Under the pieces are notes generated by a model. The model did no database searches, had not been told where the DNA came from, and saw only the letters and a program-made list of their open reading frames with translations. A stretch of DNA of 64,000 bases from NCBI RefSeq assembly GCF_003600835.1, contig NZ_NQYC01000002.1:1-64000 (forward strand). Reading direction: 5' to 3'. The stretch is from Bacillus sp. PK3_68 (GTDB lineage: Bacteria > Bacillota > Bacilli > Bacillales > Domibacillaceae). The position numbers and the translations under genes are program-made. Positions 30,168 to 49,240 of this stretch are shown here, one piece after another; within the stretch, counting starts at the first letter, position 1; each line of letters begins with the position of its first letter.

Positions 30168-31559
30168 ATGAAAGAGCTTCTCCGTGAGCTGCCGGCTATA
30201 CATATTATACAAAAAGATAGTAGATTCGACATCTTGGCAAAAGATGCCTGCATTACATCTTCAAAGCTAACTGAATGGGTTCAAGAAGAAATAAATTTTA
30301 TAAGACAGAAAGTCTTAAACGATTGCTGGTTTGAAAGGATAAACACCAAAGAATCCTACATAGACTACATTTTTAAGAGGTTGAAAGAGAAATCCAAGTC
30401 TATTCATCAATATAATCTTAAGAGTGTTATTAATGCGACTGGAACAATCCTACATACAAATTTAGGAAGAGCGAGACTTAGTAAAGAAGCTATTAGGCAA
30501 GTCACAGTAACAGCAGAAAATTACTCGAACCTGGAATATGATCTTAAAAAAGGAGTGCGCGGATCACGGCATGCAATTATTGAATCAATTTTAACGGAAA
30601 TTACTGGTGCGGAAGCTGCAATGGTGGTGAATAATAATGCAGCAGCTGTCTATCTGATTTTGAGAGCACTGGCCAAAGACAAAAAAGTAATTGTATCTCG
30701 CGGGGAATTAGTTGAAATTGGAGGAGCGTTTAGAATTTCATCCATTATGGAAGAAAGCGGTGCCATTTTAAAGGAAGTAGGGACAACAAACAAAACACAT
30801 AGGTTTGACTATGAACAGGCAATAGATGAAGATACGGTTATGTTAATGAAAGTTCACACGAGCAATTTTAAGACTGTGGGTTTTACCCATTCTGTGACTT
30901 CAGAAGAATTAGTAGAACTGGTTCAACAACACCGTGAGCTCCTTGTCTATGAAGACTTGGGAAGCGGCGCACTATATGATTTTAAAATTGGAGATGAGCC
31001 AGTAGTTGCAAAGGTCCTCAAAAAAGGTGTCGATCTGGTTTCATTCAGTGGAGATAAATTATTGGGCGGTCCGCAAGCGGGAATTATTGCGGGTAAAAAA
31101 GAGCTGATCAAAACACTCAAAACACATCAATTAGCCCGTGTATTAAGAGTCGACAAAATGACGCTTGCGGCATTAGAGGCAACACTTAAAAGTTATATCC
31201 AAGGAAGGGTTGAGGAAATTCCGACTATTCGGGATATTTTACTTCCTTTAAACGAGATTAAAAAGCGTATTGAGCTATTTTTGCAGAATACAGCTCAAAT
31301 TAAAAACAAATGGGATTTTGTTATTAAGGAAGATACTTCCCAAATTGGAGGAGGAACGATGCCGGGGGTAGAAATCCCAACTTTTGTTGTAGCAGTTAGC
31401 CATGATGCGATAAATTCACAACATATTCATGACCATTTGCGTCTGGGAAGCCCCTCCATTGTAACTCGGTTGAAAAATGATCAAGTATTAATGGACTTTC
31501 GAACAATAAACAACGACGAAATACCAATTATCATTGATGCTCTCCAAAGAATTGGCTAA
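30168..31559 (+). CDS. selA: L-seryl-tRNA(Sec) selenium transferase
   Basis: 463 aa, full family length. PLP-dependent conversion of Ser-tRNA(Sec) to Sec-tRNA(Sec) with selenophosphate. The N-terminal domain is followed by I-N-A-T-G-T-I-L-H-T-N-L-G-R-A, and the PLP lysine lies in F-S-G-D-K-L-L-G-G-P-Q-A-G near residue 295. Also present is V-Y-E-D-L-G-S-G-A. Strong AAGGAGGG site. It is the first gene of the selenium/betaine-reductase island; selD, selB and tRNA-Sec are all within 16 kb, so the decoding set is complete in the window. Confidence 0.96.
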   Translation: MKELLRELPAIHIIQKDSRFDILAKDACITSSKLTEWVQEEINFIRQKVLNDCWFERINTKESYIDYIFKRLKEKSKSIHQYNLKSVINATGTILHTNLGRARLSKEAIRQVTVTAENYSNLEYDLKKGVRGSRHAIIESILTEITGAEAAMVVNNNAAAVYLILRALAKDKKVIVSRGELVEIGGAFRISSIMEESGAILKEVGTTNKTHRFDYEQAIDEDTVMLMKVHTSNFKTVGFTHSVTSEELVELVQQHRELLVYEDLGSGALYDFKIGDEPVVAKVLKKGVDLVSFSGDKLLGGPQAGIIAGKKELIKTLKTHQLARVLRVDKMTLAALEATLKSYIQGRVEEIPTIRDILLPLNEIKKRIELFLQNTAQIKNKWDFVIKEDTSQIGGGTMPGVEIPTFVVAVSHDAINSQHIHDHLRLGSPSIVTRLKNDQVLMDFRTINNDEIPIIIDALQRIG

Positions 31560-31625
31560 GAAAAGCTCCCTGTCTTATTATTTTCGTCTCTTTAATTTAT
31601 ATGGATTTAATAAGAAAAATAAAAG

Positions 31626-31660
31626 GAGCAAACCTCCACTCAAAGTGGAGGTTTGCTCAG
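31626..31660 (+). terminator. Strong hairpin after selA
   Basis: GAGCAAACCTCCACT pairs perfectly with AGTGGAGGTTTGCTC around a 3-nt loop (15 bp). The following sequence is only weakly T-rich, so termination is likely but not certain. It buries an anti-Shine-Dalgarno-like CCTCC in the stem. Confidence 0.7.
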
Positions 31661-31823
31661 GCTTCATTTCAAATAAAGAGTTAAAAGTTTTCACAATATG
31701 TTCTCAGCAATGAGGATACTTTCACAGTCATGAGAACAACAAAAAGTACGATAGAATATTTAGATAAGATATTTACTTATAATATAAATCGAACTATACT
31801 AGATTTGTAATCACGTTTTTTTA

Positions 31824-31835
31824 TAATCTTGATTA
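31824..31835. promoter_or_regulatory. Regulon palindrome TAATC-TT-GATTA, site 1
   Basis: Perfect 5-bp half sites with a 2-nt centre, 190 nt upstream of the TetR-family gene. Same core as the sites at 31974, 34326, 34467, 41159, 45929, 49308, 52328 and 56473. Confidence 0.7.
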
Positions 31836-31973
31836 ATTGACGATCGGTTGCCATAGTAAAATAGGAAAAGTAAGCCTCAATAGAAAAAATATGGAAAGTT
31901 TCTTTTATACAGGTTAGTTACTTGGCCTTATGCGTGGGTTGAACTTAATTATTAGTTCATGTTATATTAATTA

Positions 31974-31985
31974 TAATCATGATTA
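31974..31985. promoter_or_regulatory. Regulon palindrome TAATC-AT-GATTA, site 2
   Basis: Perfect palindrome 28 nt upstream of the TetR start codon. Two sites at the regulator's own promoter suggest autoregulation. Confidence 0.75.
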
Positions 31986-32013
31986 ATAGTCAGAAAATTA
32001 GAGGTGCAAAACG

Positions 32014-32694
32014 TTGAAAAATAATTTAACTGAACGACAAATACGAAACAAAGAAGTTCAAACTACCAGAATGATGTCCTATTTTATTGATGCCACAGCT
32101 CAAATCATTGAAAAAGAAGGAATTGAAAAAGTAACCATAAGAAAAGTGGCTGATTTAGCTGGTTACAACAGTGCTACTATCTATAACTATTTTAGTGACT
32201 TGTCTCATTTGATTTCATTTGCCTCCATGAAATTTTTAAAAAAGTATACGGATGCCTTACCAGAATATTTATCAAAAGCTAAGACCCCTTTGGAGAAATA
32301 TTTTTTAATATGGGAATGCTTTTGCAAATACTCTTTTGAATCTCCACAAATTTACTATGCTGTGTTTTCTTCTGATCTTGGTGTTCATCCATCTAATTTA
32401 TCTGACTACTATGACTTCTTTCCAACTGATTTGCTGGGGTTACCAGAAAATTTAAAGGATATGTTTCTAGAATCAAATTTACCAAGAAGAACAAGAATTG
32501 CGCTTCAGCAATGTGTGACAGAGAATTACATCAAAGAGTCTGAAGCGGACCAATTGGCGGAAAGCCATTATTTAATATGGCAGGGCATGCTTACAATGTT
32601 TATCAATAATAGATCTAACTACTCGGTAAAGGAAGCAACAGAAATGACCGTCAAGCATATTCAAAATACTATTACTTTAGAAGAATCAGTATAA
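32014..32694 (+). CDS. TetR-family regulator, probable controller of the selenium/betaine regulon
   Basis: 226 aa. The N-terminal TetR HTH spans about residues 20-65 (G-I-E-K-V-T-I-R-K-V-A-D-L-A-G-Y-N-S-A-T-I-Y-N-Y-F). The helical ligand-binding C-terminus is not similar to one I recognise. TTG start with an AGAGGTG site. It lies between selA and the convergent BCCT carrier. Two perfect TAATCNNGATTA palindromes precede it, and the same sequence precedes the carrier, the reductase operon, selB, gbsA/gbsR and the TusA-diiron genes. That makes this protein the best local candidate for the binding factor (inference). Confidence 0.85.
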   Translation: MKNNLTERQIRNKEVQTTRMMSYFIDATAQIIEKEGIEKVTIRKVADLAGYNSATIYNYFSDLSHLISFASMKFLKKYTDALPEYLSKAKTPLEKYFLIWECFCKYSFESPQIYYAVFSSDLGVHPSNLSDYYDFFPTDLLGLPENLKDMFLESNLPRRTRIALQQCVTENYIKESEADQLAESHYLIWQGMLTMFINNRSNYSVKEATEMTVKHIQNTITLEESV

Positions 32695-32696
32695 AA

Positions 32697-34237
32697 TTAC
32701 ATCACTTCTTTTTTCTCGGAATGCTCGCTAATCTTGTTTTTATGTTGAGAATCAATGTGACCATCATCTCCTTTTAATGCTTTGAACAGGGTGTAACACA
32801 TGATAATCATTATTATAATGAACGGAAACGCGGCGGCAATAGAGGCAGTTTGTATCGTATTTAGACTTCCACTCATTAGCAGCACAATAGAGATTAGAGA
32901 CAATAAAACTCCCCAGTACACCTTAATTGACCGGGCAGGATTCAAGTTCCCCCAGAACTGAAAATAGATAATACAAACGTAGCAGAATCCGCAGATGTTA
33001 TAAAAAAAGTGACAATTAAAATTAAGGCGATTATACTCAAGAACAAGGCAAATGGAAAGTTCTCGAAAAAGACGAATAGTGCTAGTGAGACATCCGAGTT
33101 AACTGCATCCGCCAAAGCTTGATTTCCTAATTTGTGAACGAGGTTAAGACTTGATCCACCAAAAGCTGAAAACCATACAAAAGTTCCTAATGTGGGAATA
33201 ATCAATACACCTAAAATAAACTCTTTGATCGTTCGTCCCTTTGATACCTTAGCGATAAAGCTTCCTACAAAAGGAGCCCATGCAATCCACCAACCCCAAT
33301 AGAACAATGTCCATTCTGAAGTCCAAGTATTTTCACTAAATGGGTTGATTCTTAAACTTAGAGGCACTAATTGATCGATATACATTCCTGTAGTATTCGC
33401 AAACGTTTTAAGAATTTGTCCTGTTGGTCCTAAAACAATGAGTACAGCCATAATAAAGATGGCTAATAAAATGTTAATATTGGACAAAACTTTCATTCCA
33501 CGATCGATACCAATAAAAGCTGAGCCGGTAAATAAAGCTGTCAAAAAGCAGATGACAATAATTTGACTCACCAGATTATTGGGATAGTGGAAGAGAAAAT
33601 CTAAGCCGGTAGTAATTTGCAAAGCACCTAATCCTAAGGAGGTGGCGATACCAAAAACGGTAGCTATAATAGCTAGGACGTCAATTGTTTTGCCAATGGG
33701 GCCATGAATTTTATCCCCTAAAATAGGATAAAAAGCTGAGCTGATTAAACCAGGTAGTTTTTTTCGATACTGAAAGAAAGCTAAGCTTAAGCCGATAAAG
33801 GCATAAACTGCCCAAGGATGCAAGCCCCAATGAAAAAATGTATAGGTCATGGCCAAATTTGCTGCTTCTTCTGTATTCCCTTTTCCCATTGGGGGAGATA
33901 TGTAATGAGTTAATGGCTCAGCCACCCCCCAAAATACTAATCCAATTCCCATACCGGCACTGAATAACATGGCAAACCAGGAAATATTACTATATACGGG
34001 CTTGTCTGTATCCTCACCTAATTTCATTTTCCCAAACTTTGAGAACATTAAATAGACAATAAATAATAGAAACATTAGAGTGGCTGTTAAATACAACCAG
34101 CCAAAGTATTCAGTTACCATTTTCAAAAAGTTTGTCGATAACTTTGTCAGCAGATTATTAAAAAATATGCCCAGTATGACAAAAATGCTGGTTACTAGTA
34201 AAGAAACTGTCAAAACACCGTTGTTCTTTAAATTCAT
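32697..34237 (-). CDS. BCCT-family glycine betaine/carnitine/choline transporter (one frameshift)
   Basis: About 513 aa if one base is restored. The N-terminal 431 residues have eleven membrane segments, M-G-I-G-L-V-F-W-G-V-A-E-P, and the substrate-site helix W-T-L-F-Y-W-G-W-W-I-A-W-A-P-F-V-G-S-F-I-A. The frame breaks at the C5 run 32949-32953 (G5 on the coding strand). With six G it continues S-G-G-N-L-N-P-A-R-S-I-K into the last membrane segment and a charged tail ending at 32697. Sodium- or proton-driven uptake of a trimethylammonium compound. It is divergent from the reductase operon, with a palindrome and a cre site in between, so betaine is the likely cargo. Substrate is inferred. Confidence 0.9.
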
Positions 34238-34491: not shown

Positions 34492-35798
34492 ATGAGACTG
34501 GAGATGGGGTATTTTTTTGTGCGTGATATAGTGTTTGGAGACAAAACCTTCTTTGAAAATGGTCTTTTAACAATTAATAAAGAAGAAGCTTTAAGGGTTG
34601 TGTATGAGGATGAAAATATTACGGAAGCAGATATTCTTATTGCAAAAAGCGGTGATCCCATTCGCATTACACCGGTAAAGGAAGCAGTTGAGCCACGCTG
34701 TAAGGTTTCTGGAGGAGTGATGTTTCCAGGGGTTACAAATAAATTAGTCCCTGTTGGACAAGGAAGGACACATGTTCTAAAAGGTAGCTGTGTATTAGCT
34801 GTAGGAAAACACTGGGGAGGGTTTCAGGATGGCTTAATTGACATGAGTGGGCCTGGAGCGAAGCAAACAATTTTTTCACAACTTCTCAATGTTTGTTTAG
34901 TAGCAGATACAAACGAAGAATTTGAGAGGCGTGAGCAGCAGAAGAAAAATAAAGCGCTTCGATGGGCAGCTATGCGCTTGGCTGAATACTTAGGTTCTTG
35001 TGTGAAAAACATGGAACCAGAAGAAGTAAAAGTTTATGAACATCTGCCATTGAATCAAAGAGCCGAAGAAGCTAAGCAGCTTCCTGGCGTTGTATATGTC
35101 CTTCAGCTTCAATCGCAAATGCTTGAGAGCGGTTACAATGCGATGGTTTATGGCTGGGATGCGAATCGAATGCTGCCAACATTAATTACTCCAAATGAAT
35201 TACTAGATGGTGCGATCGTTTCGGGCAGTTTTATGCCTTCATCCTCAAAAATATCAACTTATCAGCATGCGAATAATCCGACCATTATACGGTTAATGGA
35301 GGAACATGGAAAAACTATCAACTTTATAGGTGTTATTGTTTCAAATTTAAATGTTCAATTAGAGGAAAAAGAGCGTTCAGCATTTTTTGTTAGACAGATT
35401 GCAGCTTCATTGGGCGCTCAAGGAGCAATTGTGGCCGAAGAAGGATATGGTAATCCAGATTCTGATTTTATTTTAGTAATAAACGAATTAGAAGAAGCGG
35501 GAATTAAAGTTGTGGGGATTACAAATGAGTGCACTGGACGTGACGGGATGTCTCAGTCACTTGTTGATTTATCGGAAAAGGCGAATGCTATTGTTTCCAC
35601 TGGAAATGTATCCGAATATCTTGAGCTCGGACCAATGGAAATTGTAATTGGGGAACTTGATGCATTAGCTAGAGACGGTAATTCAGGGGATGGGAAGGAT
35701 CCGTAAGGCCAGATGGATCCATTCGGATGGAAAATAACGGAATGTTTTGTGCGGACTCAAGTACAGGGCACCATTACAAAACAGTCGTCGAGTATTAA
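34492..35798 (+). CDS. grdI: Betaine (or sarcosine) reductase component B proprotein, GrdE/GrdG/GrdI family (one frameshift)
   Basis: About 436 aa when the G4 run at 35686-35689 is read as G5. Then N-S-G-G-W-E-G-S-V-R-P-D-G-S-I-R continues to a TAA at 35796-35798, instead of stopping at 35703. The family normally self-cleaves to expose a pyruvoyl group that forms a Schiff base with the amine substrate. Conserved blocks are S-G-P-G-A, L-Q-L-Q-S-Q, E-E-G-Y-G-N-P-D-S-D and G-R-D-G-M-S-Q-S. At the cleavage region the sequence is G-S-F-M-P-S-S-S-K, with no Cys. AAAGGAGGT site; first gene of the operon. Betaine is favoured over glycine or sarcosine by the adjacent BCCT carrier and gbsAB. Confidence 0.87.
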
Positions 35799-35815: not shown

Positions 35816-37132
35816 ATGAAAAAGGCAGTACATTATATCAACCAATTTTTTGGACAGATTGGGGGAGAAGATAAAGCAGATTTTGAACCGGAACTGCGAG
35901 AAGGCATAGTGGGACCGGGTTTGTTGTTAAATAATTTACTTTCTCCAGTTGCTGAAGTAACCCATACTGTTATTTGTGGAGACAATTTTTTTGGATCGAA
36001 AAAAGAAGAAGCAATTTCAAGGATTTTAGGCTTTTTAGAGGATAAAGAGTTTGATGTCTTTATTGCCGGACCGGCTTTTATGGCAGGGCGTTACGGTGTT
36101 GCATGCGGGGAAATTTGTAAAGCAGTTAAGGATAGATTTGATGTTCCTGTGATCACTAGCATGTATGTAGAAAATCCTGGTGTAGAAATGTTTCGAAAAG
36201 AAATTTATATCTTTCCGGGCGGAAACAGTGCTGTTGCTATGAGAAAAGATGTACCAAGGATGGCTGCATTTGCCAAAAAAGTCCTTTTAAATGAAGAGAT
36301 TTCTTCCGCAGATCAAGAAGGATACATGTCGAGAGGTATTCGTCTGGAGTCATTTAAAGAACCATCTATGATTGGTGCGGACCGTGCAGTAAATATGCTG
36401 CTGGATAAATTAAACAATAGAGATTATCAAACTGAAATGCCAATGCCTATAATTGACCGGGTACCGATAGCTGCTCCTGTTGAAAATTTACGGCAAGCAA
36501 CTATTGCACTTGTCAATTCTGGAGGGATTGTGCCTTTAGGAAACCCAGATCGTATTCAGTCAGCTTCTGCAACTAAGTGGGGGAGGTATGATATCTCGAA
36601 TCTCGATACCTTACAACCGGGAGAATGGGAAACTATTCATGCTGGTTTTGATCCTTCAGCAGCAAACTCTGATCCAAATCGTATTGTTCCATTAGATGCT
36701 TTAAGAACCCTTGAAAGAGAAGGGCGTATTGGAAAAGTTCACAACTATGTATACTCTACTGTTGGCACCGGAACAACACAGGCGGAAGCTAGCCGAATGG
36801 GGGCTGAAATTGCCCAGCAGTTGTTAGCTGCGAATGTTTCTGCGGTTATACTCACTTCCACCTGAGGTACTTGTACTCGTTGCGGTGCAACGATGACCAA
36901 AGAAATCGAACGTGCAGGTATTCCTATTGTGCAAATGGCTAACCTAGTATCGATTGCTAAGACTGTAGGTTCAAACCGCATTGTGCCTACAATTTCAATT
37001 CCTTATCCACTAGGGGATCCAAACACATCAAAAGAAGAGCAATGGAAATTGCGCAGGCATAGAGTAGAAGTCGCTTTAGAAGCATTAACACAACAAACTG
37101 AGCAAGCAACTGTTTTTGAAGTGCAAAGATAA
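35816..37132 (+). CDS. grdH: Selenoprotein B of betaine reductase (GrdB/GrdF/GrdH family), in-frame UGA = Sec
   Basis: 438 aa with selenocysteine at codon 350 (TGA 36863-36865). The frame is open on both sides: before it T-S-T, after it G-T-C-T-R-C-G-A-T-M-T-K-E, the typical Sec-G-T-C-T-R-C-G-A motif of this subunit. The family Sec takes up the carbon fragment from the pyruvoyl-bound substrate and passes it to GrdA. A perfect hairpin (36877-36893, loop GGU) follows the UGA as the SECIS element. ATG 35816 has an AAAGGGGGG site; without Sec decoding the gene would falsely appear as two frames (ending 36865 and starting 36893). Confidence 0.94.
36877..36893 (+). promoter_or_regulatory. Bacterial SECIS element of grdH
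   Basis: Seven-base-pair perfect stem (TCGTTGC / GCAACGA) closed by the triloop GGU. The loop starts 19 nt after the UGA, inside the usual bSECIS window, and contains the expected GU. Confidence 0.8.
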
Positions 37133-37152: not shown

Positions 37153-37611
37153 ATGTTAAGTGAAAAGAAAGTCTTTGTTCTTGGAGAACGGGATGGTGTT
37201 CCTGCACCGGCGATTGAAGAATGCATGAAAGCAGCGAAGGCGGAAGTCATTTATAAAGACACCCAGTGCTTCGTTTGAACGGCTGCTGGTGCAATGGACC
37301 AGGTGGTCCAAGAAGAATTGAAAAAAGCAGCTGAGAAATATGGAAACGAAAATGTAGTGGTTATACTTGGTTCGCCAGACGAAGACAGTGCAGATATTTT
37401 TGCTGAAACTGTAACGGTTGGCGACCCCACATATGCCGGTCCGCTGGCAGGCGTGGCTTTGGGCCTTTCTGTGTATCACATCCTTGAGGATGAAATTAAA
37501 GCTGAGATTCCGGAAGAAGTCTATCAAGATCAAGTGGGACTAATGGAACTCTCTCTGGATAAAGAAAGCATTTGCCAGGCGATTCAACAAGCAAGGGAAA
37601 AGTATCTATAG
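37153..37611 (+). CDS. grdA: Selenoprotein A (GrdA), copy 1, in-frame UGA = Sec
   Basis: 152 aa with Sec at codon 42 (TGA 37276-37278) in the exact GrdA motif C-F-V-Sec-T-A-A-G-A-M-D. It accepts the carboxymethyl group from protein B as a selenoether and gives a ketene-type intermediate to protein C; it is recycled by the thioredoxin system. N-terminus K-K-V-F-V-L-G-E-R-D-G-V-P. AGGAGGCGG ribosome site. It is 20 nt after grdH and 11 nt before trxB. A second copy at 40373 is nearly identical. Confidence 0.95.
37174..37601 (+). repeat. Direct repeat, unit 1 (grdA body)
   Basis: 428 nt matching 40397-40824 with six differences that I count by eye, all at third codon positions. It bounds a trxB-grdC-trxA segment of about 2.8 kb together with unit 2. 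Confidence 0.9.
37295..37310 (+). promoter_or_regulatory. SECIS element of grdA copy 1
   Basis: TGGACC / GGTCCA stem of six pairs with loop AGGU, starting 17 nt after the UGA (loop at +23). The same element follows the UGA of copy 2 at 40518-40533. Confidence 0.78.
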
Positions 37612-37622: not shown

Positions 37623-38596
37623 ATGAATTCCGAAAAAATCTATGATGTGATCATTGCAGGTGCTGGGCCGGCCGGTATGACAGCAGCGGTATATACTTCT
37701 CGTGCAAAGATGGACACCCTTATGATTGAAAAAGGCCTTCCTGGTGGACAGATGACAAAAACAGAAGATATAGAGAATTATCCAGGCTTCGACAAGATTT
37801 TAGGTCCTGAATTGTCCGATAAAATGTTTGAACATTCTAAAAAATTCGGGGCGGAATATCTGCGTGGGGCAATTGGGGAAATCAGAGATGGTTATCCTTT
37901 TAAAACGGTGATTGTGGAAGGCAAAGAATATAAATCGAAATCCGTCATACTTGCAACAGGAGCCCAGCATCGTCATCTCGGTGTTCCGGGAGAAATTGAG
38001 TTAGCTGGTTTTGGAGTATCCTATTGTGCGGTTTGTGATGGGGCATTTTTTGCTGATCAAGAAATTGTAGTAGTAGGTGGTGGAGATTCGGCCGTAGAGG
38101 AAGCGCTTTTTTTAACTCGCTTTGCTACAAAAGTAACGATTATACATCGTCGGGATCAATTGCGGGCTCAAAAAATTATTCAGAAAAGAGCGCAAGAAAA
38201 TGAAAAAATAGAATTCATTTGGAATCATACAGTAGAAGAAATTCTTGGCGACGGCATGGTCTCAGGGGTGTTAATCAAAGATAAATTTACAGGGGAGACT
38301 AAGGAGTTTCCTTGTAACGGTGTTTTTATTTATATAGGGATGGATCCTATAACTGATTGTGTAAAAGGTTTAGGCATTACAAATGAAAACGGGTATGTAG
38401 TTGTTGATAAAGATATGAATACTGCTGTAAAAGGTATTTTTTCAGCCGGAGATGTTAATGAAAAATGTTGCGCCAGATCATCACGGCAACCGGAGACGGC
38501 AGTATTGCTGCTCTATCCGCACAGCAATATGTAGAGGAGTTAGAAGAGGAACTGAGGGAGAAAGTGGGGGTTGAACATGGCAGCACCAGTTATTAA
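37623..38596 (+). CDS. trxB: Thioredoxin reductase of the reductase operon (one frameshift)
   Basis: About 323 aa once an A is added to the A5 run at about 38460-38464. The frame then reads E-K-M-L-R-Q-I-I-T-A-T-G-D-G-S-I-A-A to a TAA at 38594-38596. FAD motif G-A-G-P-A-G-M-T-A-A at the N-terminus; redox centre Y-C-A-V-C-D-G near residue 137; NAD(P)H site V-V-G-G-G-D-S-A-V-E-E. It reduces the operon's thioredoxin, which regenerates GrdA selenol. The repaired end overlaps the grdC start by 20 nt, which supports the repair. Confidence 0.9.
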
Positions 38597-40031
38597 GGGA
38601 GCTTCTTTTGTAATAACGCATACACCGAGTTTTGTAAGACACGGGTCAAAACCAATTCGAGAAATTGAGAAAAATAAAGAAGTACTTAATGATATTTTAA
38701 GTAACTTAAGAAGTTTTGACGATGCAGTTGCTTATCCAGCAAATCAAGTATTTATTGGCAATATAAGACCAGAACAATTAAAAGACTATGAAAGACCGTG
38801 GACAAACGTAAAGGTAGAAAAGGCAGAACGTTTTAGCCCATGGGGAGAAATTCTTCCTGAAGAAGAGTTTTACGGATGGTTGAAGATTGCTGATCGGTAC
38901 AAGTTAGTAGTTTTGGAAGAAAATTTTTTAGAACAGCAAGTAAAGAAAAGATTAAAAAAGCATCCGCTTATTACCAAAAAAGATTTGGAGGAAATAGGGG
39001 AAGGGGTTTCATTAGAAGAAATCAAAGAGCGGCTAAATCAAGGAGATGCTATTCCTCTTTATGTAAATAAAGATCAATTAATTGGGGTTTTTCTATCAGG
39101 GCATAATGAGGACAAAAATTTATCAGCTCATGTGCTTTTGGAAAATTTGAGCAATAAGGCATCCGGCATCGTAGCTATGAGGCACGCACTTCATGCTTTT
39201 GACGTTAAACCTGAGCAAATTGATTATGTGATAGGTTGCGATGAAGAAGCAGTGGGTGACCGCTATCAGCGAGGCGGTGGGAATATGGCAAAATCTATTG
39301 CTGAGCATGCTGGATGCATCAATGCTTCTGGATCCGATATTAAATCATTCTGTTGTGCACCAGCTCACGCGGTAAGTGCAGCAGCTGCCTTTGTGCAGTC
39401 AGGCATTTATAATGAGGTTTTAGTTATTGGCGGGGGATGCTTAGCAAAACTAGGGATGAAATATGCTGGAAACCTCTCTAAAAATATGCCAATAACTGAA
39501 GATCAAATGGGTGCCATTGCGATTCTAATTGGAAGGGACGATGGAAAGAGTCCAAAGATCAGAACAGATGCAATCGGAAAACATGAAATTTCTGCAGGTT
39601 CATCCAACCAAGCGATTTATCAGTCACTTGTAGTAAAGCCCCTTGAAAGAATAGGAAAAAAGATTATAGACATCGATAAATTTGCGGTGGAGCTTCATAA
39701 TCCTGATGTCACTGAGCCAAACGGAAACGGTAATGTACCTCGTGCAAACTATCGAACACTTGCTGCCATGGCAGTAATGAAAAAAGAAATGGACCGATCT
39801 GAGATTGATAGTTTTGAAAGCAAGCATGGAATGTTAGGTTTTTCCCCAACACAAGGTCATATTGCATCGGCTATACCATTTTTAGGTCATGCCAGAGATA
39901 TGATCATGAAAGGTGAAATAGAAAACTCTATGTTCGTTGGAAAAGGAAGCTTGTTTTTAGGGAAAATGACAGACCTTTCAGATGGAATGTCATTTATTAT
40001 AGAAAAAAATGATGGGAGGAATGTAGGATGA
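38577..40031 (+). CDS. grdC: Glycine/betaine/sarcosine reductase protein C beta subunit
   Basis: 484 aa. KAS/thiolase-fold subunit of protein C, which turns the acetyl selenoether on GrdA into enzyme-bound acetyl and then acetyl phosphate. Family blocks: G-A-S-F-V-I-T-H-T-P near the start, R-G-G-G-N-M-A-K, the cysteine region S-F-C-C-A-P-A-H-A, and H-G-M-L-G-F-S-P-T-Q-G-H-I-A-S-A-I-P near the end. ATG 38577 is chosen over the upstream TTG. It ends with ATGA overlap into trxA. The partner grdD, normally next to it, is not found in this window. Confidence 0.92.
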   Translation: MAAPVIKGASFVITHTPSFVRHGSKPIREIEKNKEVLNDILSNLRSFDDAVAYPANQVFIGNIRPEQLKDYERPWTNVKVEKAERFSPWGEILPEEEFYGWLKIADRYKLVVLEENFLEQQVKKRLKKHPLITKKDLEEIGEGVSLEEIKERLNQGDAIPLYVNKDQLIGVFLSGHNEDKNLSAHVLLENLSNKASGIVAMRHALHAFDVKPEQIDYVIGCDEEAVGDRYQRGGGNMAKSIAEHAGCINASGSDIKSFCCAPAHAVSAAAAFVQSGIYNEVLVIGGGCLAKLGMKYAGNLSKNMPITEDQMGAIAILIGRDDGKSPKIRTDAIGKHEISAGSSNQAIYQSLVVKPLERIGKKIIDIDKFAVELHNPDVTEPNGNGNVPRANYRTLAAMAVMKKEMDRSEIDSFESKHGMLGFSPTQGHIASAIPFLGHARDMIMKGEIENSMFVGKGSLFLGKMTDLSDGMSFIIEKNDGRNVG

Positions 40032-40345
40032 TTGAAGTCAATAAAGAAAATTTTGAATCTGAGGTTCTCCAAGCTGACCAGCCAGTTATCGTTGATTTTT
40101 GGGGGCCAAGTTGCCAGCCGTGCCTTAAATTGATGCCAGAGGTAGAGGCATTGTCAGAGGCATATGGCGATCAAGTTAAAATTGTTAAGCTTAATAGTGC
40201 AGAAAATCGAAGGGTTTGTATTAATCACCGCGTGATGGGATTGCCTGCTTTTTTAGTTTTTAAGGATGGAAAAGAAGTGAAGAGAATTGCAGGTGGAGAT
40301 TTGACAAAAGGTGATATTGAAAATCTTATCGTTCAAAGCATTTAA
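40028..40345 (+). CDS. trxA: Thioredoxin of the reductase operon
   Basis: 105 aa. Active site W-G-P-S-C-Q-P-C instead of the common W-C-G-P-C, as is typical of thioredoxins dedicated to amino-acid reductases. Cis-proline region G-L-P-A-F-L-V-F. It overlaps grdC by 4 nt (ATGA). It transfers electrons from TrxB to GrdA. Confidence 0.93.
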   Translation: MIEVNKENFESEVLQADQPVIVDFWGPSCQPCLKLMPEVEALSEAYGDQVKIVKLNSAENRRVCINHRVMGLPAFLVFKDGKEVKRIAGGDLTKGDIENLIVQSI

Positions 40346-40372: not shown

Positions 40373-40840
40373 ATGGACTTAAAAAGTAAAAAGATTTTTG
40401 TTCTTGGAGAACGGGATGGTGTTCCTGCACCGGCGATTGAAGAATGCATGAAAGCAGCGAAAGCGGAAGTTATTTATAAAGACACCCAGTGCTTCGTTTG
40501 AACGGCTGCTGGCGCAATGGACCAGGTGGTCCAAGAAGAATTGAAAAAAGCAGCTGAGAAATATGGAAACGAAAATGTAGTGGTTATACTTGGTTCGCCA
40601 GACGAAGACAGTGCAGACATTTTTGCTGAAACTGTAACGGTTGGTGATCCCACATATGCCGGTCCGCTGGCAGGCGTGGCTTTGGGCCTTTCTGTGTATC
40701 ACATCCTTGAGGATGAAATTAAAGCTGAGATTCCGGAAGAAGTCTATCAAGATCAAGTGGGACTAATGGAACTCTCTCTGGATAAAGAAAGCATTTGCCA
40801 GGCGATTCAACAAGCAAGGGAAAAATTTCTTGAAGTTTAA
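40373..40840 (+). CDS. grdA: Selenoprotein A (GrdA), copy 2, in-frame UGA = Sec
   Basis: 155 aa with Sec at codon 43 (TGA 40499-40501), same C-F-V-Sec-T-A-A-G-A-M-D motif and same downstream hairpin. From residue 9 on it is identical to copy 1 except the C-terminus (K-F-L-E-V versus K-Y-L). It ends the operon before a strong terminator. Two copies suggest demand for a high dose of protein A. Confidence 0.95.
40397..40824 (+). repeat. Direct repeat, unit 2 (grdA body)
   Basis: Partner of 37174-37601. The regions outside (start codon context, last codons) differ, so the copied tract stops inside the coding region. Confidence 0.9.
40518..40533 (+). promoter_or_regulatory. SECIS element of grdA copy 2
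   Basis: TGGACC-AGGT-GGTCCA hairpin at the same distance from the UGA as in copy 1. Confidence 0.78.
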
Positions 40841-41170: not shown

Positions 41171-41248
41171 TAAAATGATATTGTTTATATAAGCTGATTT
41201 TATCTTCATTATTATGTTTATTTATAATGTAAAAATGAGGTGGAGTTG

Positions 41249-41365
41249 ATGAAAAGGTTTTGGTTCGGAATTATTGTGATTAGTATGCTGCTGATTGGAT
41301 GCAGTAATGCGAATGAGAGCAGCTCCAGGAATAAAACTGTAAGCGAAGGATTTGCATACTCTTAA
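41249..41365 (+). pseudogene. Truncated lipoprotein gene (ABC substrate-binding protein remnant)
   Basis: 38 codons: a good GAGGTGG site, a hydrophobic signal peptide and the lipobox L-I-G-C followed by S-N-A-N-E-S. It then breaks off and merges into the phnC-like remnant. This is the front end of a lipid-anchored solute-binding protein; the body has been deleted. A PhnD-type protein is the natural guess given the next fragment. Confidence 0.72.
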
Positions 41366-41849
41366 TGAGTCCCAAATCCGCAGTGTACGGAGTGATATGG
41401 TACTGATTTTTCAATATTTTAATTTACTTCCCCGTATGAGTGTCCTTCAGAACGTACTAACAGAATCATTTAGTAGAAGAAGCCCTATTAGAAATACATT
41501 AGGAATCTTTTCTGGAGAGGAAAGAGAGTAGTCACAAAAGGCAATCGATGAATTGGAGCTTTCTGAGTATATTAATCACCATATTGAGGAGCTGAGTGGG
41601 GGACAAAAGCAACGTGTAGGAATTGCAAGATCGATGTTGCAGAAGCCAAAAGCATTGCTTGGTGATGAACCTGTAGCGAGTCTTAATCCGGGAATAGCTC
41701 GAAAAACCATGTAATTAATTGAATAAATACAAAAAATAGGCTGAGGACGATTATAAATATTCACAATGTCACATTTGCGAGGAAGTATGCTACTAGAATT
41801 ATTGCTTTAAAAGAAGGGAAAATTGTTTTCGATAGCTTGCCTACATAAT
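41358..41849 (+). pseudogene. phnC: PhnC-like ABC transporter ATPase remnant
   Basis: Translates to pieces of a phosphonate-type ATPase: Q-L/Q-loop part D-M-V-L-I-F-Q-Y-F-N-L-L-P, signature [13 protein letters not shown], degenerate Walker [14 protein letters not shown]-loop I-N-I-H-N-V and a C-terminal K-E-G-K-I-V-F-D. The Walker A part is missing and three or more stops interrupt it. Together with the lipoprotein fragment it marks a former phosphonate/oxyanion-type importer inside the selenium island. Confidence 0.78.
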
Positions 41850-42058
41850 TCATTAAAGATATATATCATCAAATTTATGGAACGAACTATTATTCAACTG
41901 CAAAAAAATCACTCTTTAAAAGTGTTAGGATATTCCTATCGCTGGTTATATTTTACAGATCAGAAATAAAGCAGAGGGATATTACGTGGGTATATTTCAT
42001 CCATTGTATATAAAGAATCATTTGTTGTGATTATCTTATGAAAGGGAAGGGCGGCCAA

Positions 42059-42860: not shown

Positions 42861-43910
42861 ATGCAAAATCAAGAGAAAATTCGGTTAACATCCTGGTCAA
42901 CAAAAGGGGGCTGAGGATGCAAAATTGGTCCAAAGGACTTGGCGCAGGTCCTGCGCTTTTTACCGCCAAGAAAACCAGATGCTAATTTATTAGTCGGCTT
43001 CAATACATCAGATGATGCAGGTGTTTATAAGCTTACTGATGATCTAGCTATCATTCAAACAGTAGATTTTTTCACACCAATTGTAGACGATCCTTATGAT
43101 TTTGGACAAATCGCAGCGGCCAATTCATTAAGCGACGTTTACGCCATGGGAGGAAAGCCGACCACGGTATTGAATATAGTTGGTTTTCCTATAAAAAAAT
43201 TAGACCCTCTTGTTCTAAGTGAAATTATGAGTGGAGCTGCGAAGAAGGTAGAGGAAGCTGGGGCGGTTATTGTAGGAGGTCACTCAATCGATGATCAGGA
43301 ACCGAAATTTGGACTTTCAGTTACCGGAATAGCTCACCCAGACCACATTTATCGAAATGTGGGGGCACAGCCAGGTGATTTATTGATTTTAACAAAACCT
43401 ATTGGTGTAGGAATACTGACTACAGCTATAAAGCGAGAATTACTTTCCGAGAGTGAAATTTTTTCAGTAACTCAAGTGATGTCGAGGTTAAACAAGGTAG
43501 CCGCAGAAAGCTTAACTGGCTTAAATGTACATGCTGTAACTGACATAACGGGATTTGGTCTTCTTGGACATGCTCTTGAAATGGCCAAAGGCAGCAACGT
43601 TCATTTTACAATTGATTACAACGCTGTGCCTATTCTTGAAGGAACGATTGAATTATCGAAGGCTGGCATTATTCCAGGAGGATCGAAAGGAAATCATGAG
43701 TGGACAAAGCCTTCTATTAATTATGACGGATTGGATGGCACCGAGGAGCTGATACTATGCGATGCCATTACCTCGGGAGGACTCCTTGTCTCTATGCCTA
43801 AGAAGGATGCTGCTGAGTACGTTATGCGTATGCAATCAATTGGGGAGCTTGCCGCTGTTATAGGAGAAGTATCGGAAAATGAAGAGAAGAGTATTACCGT
43901 AATGAAGTAA
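42861..43910 (+). CDS. selD: Selenophosphate synthetase, itself a selenoprotein
   Basis: 349 aa with Sec at codon 18 (TGA 42912-42914) in the catalytic motif G-G-Sec-G-C-K-I. Cys or Sec is always found at that site. ATP-dependent formation of selenophosphate, the donor for SelA. Downstream the glycine-rich P-loop-like region and L-L-V-G-F-N-T-S-D-D-A-G-V-Y metal/ATP sites follow. The GGGGCGAT ribosome site precedes ATG 42861. A start inside the post-UGA frame (42939) would lose the active site. Convergent with selB. Confidence 0.95.
42927..42956 (+). promoter_or_regulatory. SECIS region of selD
   Basis: Two small hairpins follow the UGA: GGTCC-AAA-GGACT (42927-42939, one G-U) and GCGCAG-GTC-CTGCGC (42942-42956, perfect). 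The second has the GU-containing loop of the other SECIS elements here, with its loop 34 nt after the UGA. I prefer it. Confidence 0.6.
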
Positions 43911-43913
43911 AAG

Positions 43914-43946
43914 AAAATCCCTTTTTCTTATTGAGAAAGGGATTTT
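43914..43946. terminator. Bidirectional terminator between selD and selB
   Basis: AAAATCCCTTTTTC / GAGAAAGGGATTTT; A-rich and T-rich flanks serve both converging genes. It overlaps the last codons of selB. Confidence 0.75.
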
Positions 43947-45862
43947 ACTGGTGAATGAACCCACCTGCGTTTATTATCATCACGGACTGTTACTTTTTTC
44001 AGGTCAAGGAGTTCTAAAAACAAAACAAGGAATTTTCGGCTGGTATTCAGTGTACTCTTCGCCTCCTGCAACGTAAACGATTCCTTGTGCTTCCTTTTCA
44101 AAAGCGATATTAATTCATTTACAATAGTATGATGAATAAGATGTTTCTCGTCTAGCCTCTCAACTATTTTCTCTCTGATTATAAAGTCCAAAAAGTCTTT
44201 AGCAAGTGCATCGGGCATATTTGTTTGAGTGATAATCTCTTTGAAAGGCATCGGCTCCAACCCTTGGCTTTCTATCTGATTAATGACTGAAAGCATCTTT
44301 TTTTCCCACTGCTTTGGCATAGACGGCTGAAAAGTCTTTAAAAAGACACTTGGACCACTTAAACAAACTAGTCCTTGTGATTTCATTTGTTCTAAAACAG
44401 CATTGATCAGTTTTTCAGGATATAAATGTTTTAGTGTTTGAACAACTTCAGCTTTAGGAATTCCCGTTCTCAATGGATGTTGTTCATGATACTGGGCAGC
44501 TTGAGTGAAAATATCATTTTCTAATTGTGCAACAACGTCTCTTGAAATAAAATGCCCCTCCAGCCGGGTGATTTTATTGGTTAGTTCCCCTTCCTCCAAT
44601 AACCTATGCAACCCTTCTTCTGTTACCCCTAATTGCTTAATCATCTCCTCTGGGGTTAGCTGTTTATGGCGTCTGAGAAGTGTCATGAGCTGTTCTAGAG
44701 GGGAGTCTTTTTCCATCTGTTTCAATTTTTCCACTGTTTCTTTCCCGAACGGGTACTTCTCTCCAGAAACATTAATGATTTTTCCGCCTGCAAAAGTTTC
44801 CATTGGAGAGGGTCGGCGAAGAATAAACCGATCTCCTTTTTTTCCAACAATGGGCTCTTCGAGTCTAATTTGACAATAAACCGCTTCATTGGCGTGAGCC
44901 TCTAGAACATTTCGATCGAAGAAAACAAGTTTTCCCATAACCTCTGAAGTTCCAATGTGTAATTTAACGAGTTCCCGCTGTTTCAAAGAGTGACGCATTA
45001 AAACCGTAGTACGCATTACAATATCTATACAATTCGTAGTAGCATAGTGGTTTGAGTCAACAAGAACATGGCCTCTCTGCAATTTATCACGAGCGACCCC
45101 AGAGATATTTATTGCAACCCTTTGGCCAGCATAGGCTTGAGAGACCACTTGATTTTGAGATTGTAACTGTCTAATCTTCGCCTGGTAGCCGTCAGGTAAA
45201 ATAAGAATGGGCTGTCCTGTAGTAATCATGCCATCATAGATGGTTCCGCGTATAATAGTCCCGTGTCCTTGCAGAGTGAAAACCTGATCAATAGGCAAGC
45301 GAAAGGCCCCATCTATATCCTTTTGTGGAAGTTGTTCAAGATTTTTCACAATCTCTAATTTTAACTCTGTAATGCCACGCTTTGAAATTCCATCTACATA
45401 TATCACTTCAGCTGTGTTGAACACTGTCTCGTGAAGATAATCCTTTATTTCCTCTTTTGCTAGTTCTAGTTGTTCGTTATCTACCGTTTCAGCTTTAGTG
45501 ATAGCAATAATTGCTTTTTCAATACCTAGTAAAGAGAGAATTTCAAAATGCTCTTTTGTCTGAGGCATTATCCCTTCATCAGCCGCTATAGCCACAATGA
45601 CCAGGTCGATTCCCGTAACACCGGCTATCATTTGCTTGATAAATTTCTCATGTCCCGGTACATCGATAATAGAAACCTGATAATCCTTTTTTAAGTGGAT
45701 AGGGGCGTAGCCCAATTCAATTGAAATATTTCTCTCTTTCTCTTCTTTTAATCGATCTGTATCTACATCGGTTAAAGCTTTTGTTAGCGTTGTTTTGCCG
45801 TGATCAATATGCCCTGCAATTCCAATAGTGTAATAGCTCACCTTAAAACCTCCTATTACCAA
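43928..45862 (-). CDS. selB: Selenocysteine-specific elongation factor
   Basis: 644 aa. EF-Tu-like GTPase: G1 [10 protein letters not shown]3 D-V-P-G-H-E, G4-like T-K-A-E, then beta-barrel domains. The C-terminal third (about residues 400-640) consists of winged-helix repeats that bind the SECIS hairpin. It delivers Sec-tRNA(Sec) to UGA codons. The likely start is the second Met-like codon V-S-Y-Y-T-I-G or the ATG at 45862; an AGGAGG site lies close to the latter's downstream GTG, so the first 7-8 residues are uncertain. A partly matching regulon palindrome lies 67 nt upstream. Confidence 0.95.
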
Positions 45863-46040: not shown

Positions 46041-46137
46041 GGGGGTGGTTGAGGTGCTGGTGCTCTTCCCGGTCTTCAAAACCGAGTGGGACGTCCGTGA
46101 GGCGTTCGGTGGGTTCGATTCCCATCCTCTCCCGCCA
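46041..46137 (+). tRNA. selC: tRNA-Sec (UCA anticodon)
   Basis: 97 nt. Eight-base-pair acceptor (GGGGGTGG with CCTCTCCC, one U-U mismatch and one G-U), then discriminator G and encoded CCA. Extended D arm with an inner U-U mismatch; anticodon loop CTTCAAA giving UCA (46076-46078). Long variable arm of seven pairs (GGACGTC / GGCGTTC, loop CGTGA). T arm GTGGG-TTCGATT-CCCAT. The 8+5 helix layout and UCA anticodon are unique to bacterial tRNA-Sec. It lies between selB and gbsB, on the opposite strand. Confidence 0.93.
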
Positions 46138-46206: not shown

Positions 46207-46325
46207 AGCGCCTTTGTTAATAAAGTTGAATTTAACACAATAAAAATGGACAGCCTTTTGTTAAACTTCATGTTATTGAGAAATAAGTGGCTTAATTGTT
46301 AGAAACACTGTATGAGTCCCATTGC

Positions 46326-46370
46326 ACCGGCTTTTAAAGAAGTCAGGCTTATTTAAAAGCCGGTTTTTTT
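46326..46370 (+). terminator. Second rightward terminator between tRNA-Sec and gbsB
   Basis: ACCGGCTTTTAAA / TTTAAAAGCCGGT (13 bp) followed by TTTTTTT. The T tract is on the + strand, so it is oriented with tRNA-Sec, not with gbsB that ends 23 nt to the right; a back-up terminator or a remnant of a lost gene. Confidence 0.8.
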
Positions 46371-46392
46371 CACACTATGATATAAGGTTGAC

Positions 46393-47649
46393 TTAATAAG
46401 CAGCTACTTTTTCTGGAGCAACAGAGTCAGCCTTTTGAGTAGAAATAGTTTTGGGAACAAGATTGAAGCACCGTTTGTATATCCATTTATACGCGTTTAA
46501 ATTGAGATCTCGAGGGTTGCCGATGGTTTGCGGATCATTTAGTGCTTCCTCTGCCAGTCTATCAACCATATCAGGAGACACGCCTTGCTCTTCGAGTGTC
46601 GGGATGTCTAAATCTTCTACTAATTCATATACCCAATTAACTGCTGCCTTGGCCGCTTCCTCTGTAGACAATCCGTGTGTGTTGATTCCTACAGCCTGGG
46701 CGATCCGTGCGAATTTCTCAGGGTTGCCTTTCCAGTTATACTCCATAACTGGTCCCATCATTGCTGCTACGCATTGTCCGTGAGCCACTGGAATAATTCC
46801 TCCAAGTGTTTGACTCATTGCATGAGCGGCTCCAGCGGATTCACTGCCGTAGGAGAGGCCCGCTAACATTGCGGCCTGTGCCATGCCGTAGCGCGCTTCT
46901 AAATCTTCGCCGTCTGAGTAAGCGCGGCGGATATATTTTGACACATACTCCATAGCCAATAAAGCAACAGCATCTGTGATTGGCTGGGCATATTTCATCG
47001 TATAACATTCAATGGCATGTGCCAAGGCATCGACACCTGTCATCGCAGTAACGTGAGGGGGCATTGACAAGTGTAACTCAGGGTCAATAATTGTTAAATG
47101 GGCTGCAATTAATGGCCCGCCAGTATTAAATTTAAATTGTCGCTCTTCATCTGTGATTACGGCCCATTGTGTCACTTCTGAACCAGTTCCAGCTGTGGTT
47201 GGAATAGTGACGAGCGGAGGAATCCGGTTTTCCAGCGGCTTTTTGCCATCTGCGGCTTCGTAGTCTAAAACAGATCCTTCGTGTGTGGCTTCAACACCAA
47301 TTGCTTTTGCAGTATCCATAGAACTTCCGCCGCCTACTGCTATGAGTCCATCACATTTTTCTGCTTTATATAGTGTAGACCCTTCGTTGACGAGTCGGAC
47401 AGGCGGATTCGGCTCTACTTTATCAAACAATACAACTTCAACATCCGCTTCTTTTAAGTAGTTAATAATAGGATTTACAACGCCAGCTTTGAAAATGCCA
47501 GGGTCCGTAACGAGCAAAATCTTATTAACCCCTAAATTTCTCACTTCGTTCCCTACATGCTTGATGGAGCCAATCCCATGTTTAATCACTGTCGGTGTTT
47601 CGAAACTATGAAATCTATACATTTGTTCTACTTTCATATTTAAACTCAT
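46393..47649 (-). CDS. gbsB: Iron-type alcohol dehydrogenase, probable choline dehydrogenase GbsB
   Basis: 418 aa from ATG 47649 with an AAAGGAGGC site; the upstream in-frame extension is ignored. Group III NAD-dependent alcohol dehydrogenase: G-G-G-S-S-M-D-T-A-K-A near residue 98, P-T-T-A-G-T-G-S-E-V-T, metal ligands in the region D-A-L-A-H-A-I-E-C-Y and G-A-A-H-A-M-S...A-H-G-Q-C. In Bacillus GbsB oxidises choline to betaine aldehyde. It follows gbsA by 88 nt on the same strand. A C-terminal extension of about 20 residues is present. Confidence 0.88.
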   Translation of the reverse strand: MSLNMKVEQMYRFHSFETPTVIKHGIGSIKHVGNEVRNLGVNKILLVTDPGIFKAGVVNPIINYLKEADVEVVLFDKVEPNPPVRLVNEGSTLYKAEKCDGLIAVGGGSSMDTAKAIGVEATHEGSVLDYEAADGKKPLENRIPPLVTIPTTAGTGSEVTQWAVITDEERQFKFNTGGPLIAAHLTIIDPELHLSMPPHVTAMTGVDALAHAIECYTMKYAQPITDAVALLAMEYVSKYIRRAYSDGEDLEARYGMAQAAMLAGLSYGSESAGAAHAMSQTLGGIIPVAHGQCVAAMMGPVMEYNWKGNPEKFARIAQAVGINTHGLSTEEAAKAAVNWVYELVEDLDIPTLEEQGVSPDMVDRLAEEALNDPQTIGNPRDLNLNAYKWIYKRCFNLVPKTISTQKADSVAPEKVAAY

Positions 47650-47737
47650 AATAAGTGCCTCCTTTATCTTAAATAGAATAATTATTAGCAAACTAGTATT
47701 ACTTTTAGTAAAGTTGACCAGCTGAAAGCATTAGCAA

Positions 47738-49240
47738 TCAAGCTTTGGCTAATTTACTATTTTGACGTTCTTTCACTTTAAACCAGTTTTGTGGCTCTGG
47801 ATTTGTATTTTGATAGATGTGTTTGATTTCTGTGTATTCTTCTATTCCAATGTGGCTTAATTCTCTACCAATACCAGACTGTTTATATCCACCCCAAGGT
47901 GCTTGAGGGAAATAGGGATGATAGTCATTGATCCATGTTGTTCCCATCCGAAGGCTGCTTACAACCCGCTCGGCACGATTCATATCATTTGTCCAAACAG
48001 CTCCTGCCAATCCATAATCGCTGTCATTCGCAAGATCGATGGCTTGCTTTTCCGTATCAAAAACTTCTACCGTCATAACTGGGCCAAATGATTCTTCCTG
48101 AACTATTTGCATACCTGTATGGCAATTTGTAAAAATAGTAGGTTCAATAAAAAATCCTTTTTGCAGTTCAGGATCGCTCGGTCTTTTTCCACCCACAGCA
48201 AGTGTAGCGCCTTCCTTTATACCAGCTTGAATATAGTTTTCAATTGTTTTCAAATGTTCTGCTGAGATGACTGGTCCCATTTCTGTATCCCCATCGAAAC
48301 CGCTTCCAATTTTAATCTGTTTTGTACGCTCTACAACAGCTTCTACAAATCGGTCATGGATATCTCTTTGTACAATCAACCTTGCTCCAGCGGAACAAAC
48401 TTGTCCAGCATGGAAAAACACGGCATTAAGAGCGTAGTCCACAGCCGTATCAAAATTGGCATCAGCAAACACTATATTAGGATTTTTGCCTCCAAGTTCC
48501 ATAGAAATCTTTTTAAAGTTACTGGAGGCCGCTTGCATGATGCTTCTTCCAGCATCTCCTCCACCTGTAAATGAAATTAAATCAACGAGTGGGCTTTCTG
48601 CTAATTCCGCACCCACACTGGAGCCAGGACCTAACACGAGATTTATGACACCTTTTGGAAATCCAATTTCTTCAAATATCTCACACATTTTAATAGAAGT
48701 AAGGGGCGTGATCTCCGCTGGTTTTAATATAACCGTATTTCCTGCTGCCAGAGCGGGAGCTAATTTCCAAGAGGCCTGAAGTAAAGGATAATTCCATGGA
48801 GCAATTAAGCCACAAACGCCAACTGGCTCGCGTACAACCCGGCTTATTGAATTTGGATTCGGTGATTCAATCATCATGCCGCCATCTTTATCTGCAAGAC
48901 CAGCATAGTATTGGAAAACACCAGCAATTCCATCCATGTCTGCCAGACTTTCTGTTACTGTCTTTCCAGTATTAAGGGATTCTAGTTCCGCTAATTCTTG
49001 TTTATACTCTCTTATTTTTAAAGCTACTTGGTAAAGCAATTCACCCCTTTCAACTGCGCTGTAATTTTTCCACTCTCCTTCATCAAAAGCTGTTCTAGCC
49101 GCTAGGATGGCTGTTTTGGTATCCTCCCGGTTACCGCGTGTTACTGTTTCAATTACTTGTTGATTGAATGGATTAATTATCTGTTTTGAATTACCACTGA
49201 TGGATTCTGTCCATTGACCATTGATGAACATGAGTTTCAA
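47738..49240 (-). CDS. gbsA: Betaine-aldehyde dehydrogenase
   Basis: 500 aa NAD(P)-dependent aldehyde dehydrogenase. Motifs: A-P-W-N-Y-P-L-L near 155, S-F-T-G-G near 230, catalytic Glu in M-E-L-G-G-K-N-P, catalytic Cys in H-A-G-Q-V-C-S-A-G near 290, and E-E-S-F-G-P-V. Oxidises betaine aldehyde to glycine betaine. TTG 49240 is chosen because GGAGGTG lies 6 nt before it. First gene of gbsAB here, with a regulon palindrome 68 nt upstream shared with the divergent gbsR. Confidence 0.92.
   Translation of the reverse strand: MKLMFINGQWTESISGNSKQIINPFNQQVIETVTRGNREDTKTAILAARTAFDEGEWKNYSAVERGELLYQVALKIREYKQELAELESLNTGKTVTESLADMDGIAGVFQYYAGLADKDGGMMIESPNPNSISRVVREPVGVCGLIAPWNYPLLQASWKLAPALAAGNTVILKPAEITPLTSIKMCEIFEEIGFPKGVINLVLGPGSSVGAELAESPLVDLISFTGGGDAGRSIMQAASSNFKKISMELGGKNPNIVFADANFDTAVDYALNAVFFHAGQVCSAGARLIVQRDIHDRFVEAVVERTKQIKIGSGFDGDTEMGPVISAEHLKTIENYIQAGIKEGATLAVGGKRPSDPELQKGFFIEPTIFTNCHTGMQIVQEESFGPVMTVEVFDTEKQAIDLANDSDYGLAGAVWTNDMNRAERVVSSLRMGTTWINDYHPYFPQAPWGGYKQSGIGRELSHIGIEEYTEIKHIYQNTNPEPQNWFKVKERQNSKLAKA

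Follow-up and report, generated by a model that had tools for sequence, protein, structure and literature searches.

A candidate betaine reductase with selenocysteine but without GrdD in Bacillus sp. PK3_68

The stretch of DNA analysed here, hereafter the window, comprises 64,000 nucleotides of Bacillus sp. PK3_68 and forms the first 64 kb of a contig of 351,837 bases (C2); a further contig (C1) spans 4.48 Mb. Between positions 30168 and 49240 the window carries genes of a selenocysteine (Sec)-dependent reductase of the Grd type, together with genes for Sec insertion and for the oxidation of choline to betaine. We suggest, as an even call, that this locus represents a Sec-dependent betaine reductase of a distinct lineage that is devoid of GrdD, and that its GrdC would itself yield acetyl-CoA. 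An earlier interpretation of the bare DNA sequence (the sequence-only reading) had stressed a self-contained route from choline to trimethylamine and acetyl phosphate; the interest of the locus lies elsewhere, in the GrdD-less lineage to which this reductase belongs. The usual accounts link glycine, sarcosine and betaine reductases to acetyl phosphate, to substrate-level phosphorylation and to anaerobes. Among the matches listed in a search of the open-licence literature, no description was found of a GrdD-less type or of a betaine reductase in Bacillaceae.

Absence of GrdD from the locus and from its relatives

GrdD is the alpha subunit of protein C and the known former of acetyl phosphate. 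Gene identities were assigned with NCBIfam models and their curated cut-offs, plus Pfam (PF) domain matches. In the whole genome, the GrdD model recovered plsX only (38.6 bits against a cut-off of 350), and a tblastn search of the window and the rest of C2 with 16 GrdD proteins, references obtained from 16 of 17 loci, found none. Acetyl phosphate as the end product of the pathway, as previously proposed, is not borne out, since GrdD was not found in the genome.

The same picture emerges from related genomes. None of the four genomes of the order with a near full-length GrdB-type match, this one included, has GrdD. Scanning named genomes for GrdC yielded 22 loci, 21 of which, in 20 genomes, were used (L065 is the second contig of the L045 genome); GrdD exceeded the cut-off in one of these 20, a Companilactobacillus, and one further genome carries a 66-residue GrdD piece at a contig end. 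GrdC was over the cut-off in 7 of 398 genomes of a Bacilli sample, with GrdD in one (G428) of the six besides the window's genome, and in 14 of 148 genomes of a Clostridia-side sample (the class of G424, an Oscillospiraceae metagenome-assembled genome, MAG). Seventeen Clostridia-side genomes were tested for GrdD, comprising the 14 just mentioned, a genome whose GrdC is split, and a pair of MAGs with a grdC cut by the contig end; 15 of them have GrdD over the cut-off (576-608 bits), and the two without a match are the MAGs with the contig-cut grdC.

Not one of 12 distinct Bacilli genomes with a GrdC of the GrdD-less type described below has GrdD over the cut-off (G000, G145, G214, G229, G405, G406, G408, G409, G684, G458, G514, G488; G407 duplicates G229 and G582 duplicates G408, as judged by identical plsX places). 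Nine of them are 98-100% complete, two of these nine with 7-8% contamination, and three come without a completeness figure. GrdD over the cut-off was likewise found in none of 12 draft genomes of other phyla (G410-G420, G423), ten of which are titled MAG, so that the absence is weaker there. At the level of the gene neighbourhood, tblastn placed GrdD beside grdC in all 16 loci of the GrdD group and in none of 28 other loci, a count that includes the window gene twice (window and L087) and three loci (L045, L053, L062) with too little contig downstream to tell. The place after grdC at which grdD sits in GrdD-bearing loci is occupied by trxA in the window, and in the relatives either trxA or another gene of the grd set stands immediately 3' of grdC. 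As judged by these sequence comparisons, the missing grdD is not a local loss.

A classical GrdCD enzyme whose grdD was missed through assembly gaps or by the search might be considered, as the genomes of other phyla and several of the Bacilli are drafts. However, this explanation is strongly contradicted by the 12 Bacilli genomes, most of them essentially complete, by the high scores that the very same model attains in 15 of the 17 Clostridia-side genomes, and by the genes that directly follow grdC in the relatives; we regard it as highly improbable.

Two kinds of GrdC and the fate of the acetyl group

A tree of 43 GrdC rows contains a 100/100 branch that splits 16 GrdD-associated rows plus L062 from 26 GrdD-less rows (L086 and L049 are identical and probably one gene). 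All 16 GrdD-associated proteins possess 31-34 residues past alignment column N478 and a Gln at window position 374, whereas all 26 GrdD-less proteins have 0-12 residues past this column (L045 among them is cut off by the contig end) and a His at position 374. L062, whose contig ends inside grdC, carries Gln at this position, in keeping with a grdD that would be located past the contig end. Further residues mark the GrdD-less proteins (K25, R229 and Y230 in 26/26, K295 in 25/26), and both H374 and H428 are conserved among them. In a structural model of the GrdD-associated L063 protein the tail is predicted, at low confidence, to form a helix (residues 494-512), and structure comparison of models points to a FabH/thiolase-like fold with a reactive Cys for GrdC.

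Building on the known glycine/betaine reductase cycle, we envision the following sequence of reactions. Choline would be converted to betaine by GbsBA, or betaine would be imported by a carrier; GrdHI would then free trimethylamine and load the carboxymethyl group onto the Sec residue of GrdA, GrdC would convert carboxymethyl-GrdA to an acetyl thioester on C259, and thioredoxin and TrxB would re-reduce GrdA. Without GrdD, GrdC would pass the acetyl group to coenzyme A (CoA), giving acetyl-CoA and not protein-C-made acetyl phosphate; this transfer is proposed because GrdC has a FabH/thiolase fold, whose members handle CoA thioesters. Since this widespread version of the enzyme is devoid of the known acetyl phosphate former, the acetyl group is probably released other than via GrdD-made acetyl phosphate, and perhaps as acetyl-CoA.

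Several points weigh against this proposal, and the frameshifts described below have to be added to them. Comparison with solved relatives gives modest TM-scores (0.34-0.41 relative to query length, among the matches listed). We infer from the order of motifs that H374 corresponds to the catalytic His/Asn of the superfamily, but HMM alignments (hhalign) with thiolase/KAS profiles left H374 unplaced, and one of them put the FabH His segment elsewhere; moreover, transacylation by FabH is not known to depend strictly on that His. As the split in the tree is one deep event, common ancestry, and not function, may be what ties the tail and residue 374 to GrdD, and their correlation does not provide independent tests of function.

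GrdC alone might also release the acetyl group to water, as acetate, or straight to phosphate with no involvement of CoA; the reductase would then mainly serve electron disposal, or would form acetyl phosphate without GrdD. The lack of a GrdD over the cut-off suits such a reaction, and the His that replaces the Gln could serve to activate not only a thiol but also water or phosphate. Set against this are the CoA-handling members of the fold family and the waste, by hydrolysis, of energy that classical reductases conserve, and we consider this alternative unlikely, if far from negligible.

Less probable still, in our view, is that the role of GrdD is filled by an unlinked protein, such as its relative PlsX, or by an enzyme that escaped recognition. 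All 12 Bacilli genomes encode PlsX-like proteins, which bear a weak likeness to GrdD (18.8-38.6 bits); they are, however, without the invariant Cys of GrdD (7/7 aligned), and PlsX was rejected as a stand-in on this ground. Earlier work is said to have dealt with Cys359 of GrdD; our literature search found no paper naming Cys359. A shared replacement gene was also sought and rejected, as no other named family is common to most GrdD-less loci. The absence of the GrdC tail that accompanies GrdD also weighs against a protein acting in the place of GrdD. The gene groups shared across loci are grd, trx, tetR, sel, BCCT (three loci) and two unnamed groups found in six loci each, one of which is an ABC-type ATPase by its first residues, while the longest member of the second lies opposite grdA in L059.

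Returning to the release of acetyl-CoA by GrdC, we tentatively propose, with confidence a shade under even, that Grd systems come in two kinds: GrdCD, making acetyl phosphate, and a GrdD-less kind, whose His374-type GrdC would by itself make acetyl-CoA. The GrdD-less kind was found in Bacilli, in drafts of Chloroflexota, Actinomycetota, Thermomicrobiota and Bipolaricaulota, and in one Burkholderiales MAG. If the proposal is true, such lineages could send osmolyte carbon directly to central metabolism; it would further follow, provided that the FabH-like active site is ancestral, that GrdD and the tail of GrdC were acquired later. For its carrier genomes, currently labelled by these family models as having the classical complex, a GrdD-less form spread across phyla would alter the product and the energy yield to be predicted, and it would add a selenium-dependent route from choline or betaine to trimethylamine in Bacilli. 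Residue 374 and the tail offer simple sequence tests for telling both kinds apart, and the former amounts to a one-residue hypothesis.

Gene content, substrate and integrity of the locus

Every sel, grd, trx, BCCT, gbs and tRNA-Sec gene that the sequence-only reading had named was recovered at or near its place by profile searches and ARAGORN (Table 1), and the complete Sec insertion set (selA, selB, selD, tRNA-Sec) does adjoin the reductase genes, as had been claimed. The curated NCBIfam cut-offs are exceeded by SelA, both GrdA proteins, TrxB, GrdC, SelD, SelB, GbsB, GbsA and CudC/GbsR; GrdH, TrxA and the long BCCT piece stay below theirs.

Table 1. Features of the locus and its right flank, in their order along the window (aa, amino acids).
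Feature	Position	Strand	Evidence
selA, Sec synthase	30168..31559	+	TIGR00474 540 bits, cut-off 268
TetR-type regulator	32014..32694	+	PF00440; its group in 6/23 compared loci, window included
BCCT carrier, two frames (32942-34237, 32697-32945)	32697..34237	-	PF02028 in both pieces
grdI, betaine reductase B alpha, final 36 aa in other frame	34492..35795	+	alignment to L046, 435 aa
grdH, selenoprotein B, UGA at 36863	35816..37132	+	NF040795 763 bits, cut-off 775
grdA copy 1, selenoprotein A, UGA at 37276	37153..37611	+	NF040748 222 bits
trxB, final ~45 aa in other frame, overlaps grdC start	37623..38593	+	TIGR01292 369 bits (first piece)
grdC, protein C beta, 484 aa, C259, H374, H428, tail-less	38577..40031	+	NF040746 695 bits, cut-off 450
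trxA, immediately 3' of grdC	40028..40345	+	NF047697 136 bits, cut-off 140
grdA copy 2, UGA at 40499	40373..40840	+	NF040748 221 bits
selD, UGA at 42912	42861..43910	+	TIGR00476 417 bits
selB	43928..45862	-	TIGR00475 356 bits
tRNA-Sec	46041..46137	+	ARAGORN
gbsB, choline dehydrogenase	46393..47691	-	NF053866 749 bits
gbsA, betaine aldehyde dehydrogenase	47738..49240	-	TIGR01804 690 bits, cut-off 669
cudC/gbsR choline regulator	49443..50024	+	NF047500 234 bits, cut-off 218
SSF-family sodium/solute symporter	50494..52191	+	PF00474 131 bits; no NCBIfam cut-off reached

Four genes, grdH, both grdA copies and selD, contain an in-frame UGA. Compared with shuffled sequences, a 60-base stretch taken at or just past the UGA folds better in grdA copy 1 (z -3.9) and copy 2 (z -4.1) and weakly so in grdH (z -1.7), while the corresponding stretch of selD folds no better than shuffles (z 0.1). 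Over 300 nt the grdA copies share 97% identity, and both proteins exceed the NF040748 cut-off and have CFVU as their CxxU motif. GrdH (438 aa) has UGTCTRC as its UxxCxxC motif and passes TIGR01918 (683 bits); GrdI matches the related GrdG model with 385 bits against a cut-off of 780.

Among the substrate-specific models the betaine model scores best with GrdH, ahead of those for sarcosine (591 bits) and glycine (539), but its curated cut-off is missed, and no substrate-specific B cut-off is reached. By best score and neighbourhood, the window reductase appears nearest to the betaine type. The GrdH proteins of five Bacilli relatives behave likewise, with the betaine model best, yet under its cut-off; in a scan of ten B proteins this model was best only in those of the Bacilli L046, L048 and L050. 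The GrdD-less kind extends beyond betaine, because the B proteins of L051 and L056, GrdD-less loci from other phyla, pass the glycine cut-off. Three more GrdB/GrdE-type pairs, with about 40%/28% identity to those of the window, are found on L040 and L041 of genome G145, two of them close to genes that, by their first residues, encode TRAP-type transporters; the scanned pair is below all three substrate-specific cut-offs and may use another substrate.

Whether the window copy works is doubtful, because three of its genes are frameshifted. When the intact proteins of Cytobacillus oceanisediminis (L046; BCCT 513, GrdI 435 and TrxB 325 aa) are taken as the reference, BCCT, grdI and trxB of the window each align as two pieces in different frames, with breaks at L046 residues 430, 399/400 and 281, respectively (window positions around 32950, 35690 and 38465); for GrdI, residues 1-399 lie at 34492-35688 and residues 400-435 at 35688-35795. 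In genome G214 each of the three genes aligns in one piece. The long BCCT piece (590 bits) is under its NCBIfam cut-off of 650. Consequently, the description of the system as self-contained is not supported, in view both of these three frameshifts and of the GrdD not found in the genome, neither of which the sequence-only reading had noticed.

True decay and assembly error are both possible causes. That the window copy is what remains of a system in decay, on a 352-kb contig poor in genes, whatever this enzyme type does elsewhere, is a serious contender, although we lean slightly against it. It would account for further splits in the same window, where a sigma-54 activator (7869-9550) and an enoyl-CoA hydratase (19471-20252) are each spread over two open reading frames (ORFs), and for the coverage by ORFs of at least 200 aa, which amounts to 0.31-0.77 in stretches of C2 versus 0.50-0.87 in nine stretches of C1, a measure that does not separate decay from low gene density or errors. 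A small sample of C1, 19 kb around plsX, has no obvious break when ORF lengths are judged against usual gene sizes. On the other hand, the sequence past the breaks is still conserved (83% identity for the grdI end), the breaks resemble single-base losses in or near short runs, like sequencing errors, and grdH, grdA, grdC, trxA and the sel and gbs genes are open.

The idea that the osmoprotectant route feeds the reductase is supported by the adjoining gbs genes and by an independent pairing in Ammoniphilus (L048), in which gbsB (720 bits, cut-off 550) directly follows grdC-trxA in the same orientation and a CudC regulator (229 bits, cut-off 218) is encoded some 5 kb upstream of grdI, on the opposite strand; this pairing supports a feeding of the putative betaine reductase by choline. 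Two points speak against a dedicated pathway: gbs genes occur in the fetched flanks of L048 only, among 22 loci searched, and, since the window gbsB is the only one in its genome to exceed the family cut-off, gbsAB may just be the ordinary osmoprotectant route of the cell. Next to other grd clusters, a pyruvate carboxylase gene is divergent from tetR in L046 (115-3582) and in L037 of G214 (7234-10683); its presence would be in keeping with growth on acetyl-CoA, but little can be concluded from two cases. A malic enzyme-like gene, its best match below cut-off, lies beside the grd cluster of L049 from Ammoniphilus (4453-5643).

Acquisition of the locus as an island agrees with its patchy distribution, near full-length GrdB-type matches being present in 1 of 24 genomes of the family and in 4 of 397 of the order, and with its position on C2. 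In 52 of the 397 genomes of the order there are short proteins whose match to the GrdB model is limited to its C-terminal half. In a Gammaproteobacteria-side sample, 1 of 369 genomes matched at E 1e-30 or better, this being the sample's own centre, and megablast against plasmids recovered no more than three short matches, all from Enterococcus, one of them named grdH.

Elsewhere in the window, an apparent ABC transporter remnant (a lipoprotein start and ATPase pieces with stops, seen by eye) lies between grdA copy 2 and selD (41220-41860). A fatty-acid degradation cluster (9799-25325) comprises acyl-CoA dehydrogenases, an acyl-CoA ligase, a 3-hydroxyacyl-CoA dehydrogenase, ETF, thiolases and hydratases, and the segment 52432-55790 holds a TusA-domain protein with a weak AurF match under the cut-off, followed by an ORF that by eye resembles acyl-CoA dehydrogenases and by a binding protein of the phosphonate type.

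Comparison with known systems

With the clostridial betaine reductase the locus shares GrdH/GrdI, a Sec-containing GrdA, GrdC, the thioredoxin pair, SelA/B/D and tRNA-Sec, with the betaine B model best; in contrast to the clostridial enzyme, which has GrdCD, the window is without GrdD, and its GrdC is tail-less and has His instead of Gln at position 374. In the available part of the respective report, the sarcosine set of strain DCMF comprises a GrdC of 513 aa and a GrdD of 388 aa (PMC9768040). Shewanella sp. MTB7, a facultative anaerobe, likewise combines grd genes with selA, selB, selD, trxA and trxB but, according to the available part of the source, differs in that grdD is listed and the B component is given as grdB/grdE (PMC10059138).

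GrdC shares its predicted fold and the position of its reactive Cys with KAS III (FabH) and the thiolases; it differs from them in being longer, in receiving, in the known cycle, its acetyl group from GrdA, and in not being known to condense acyl chains. The osmoprotective GbsAB system of Bacillus is matched by gbsB, gbsA and a CudC-type regulator over the cut-off; unlike there, the gbs genes of the window adjoin a putative betaine-consuming enzyme and would not only serve betaine accumulation. Finally, the end result would be the same as that of the choline trimethylamine-lyase CutC, namely trimethylamine from choline, although it would be reached through two oxidations and a reductive cleavage instead of through glycyl radical chemistry.

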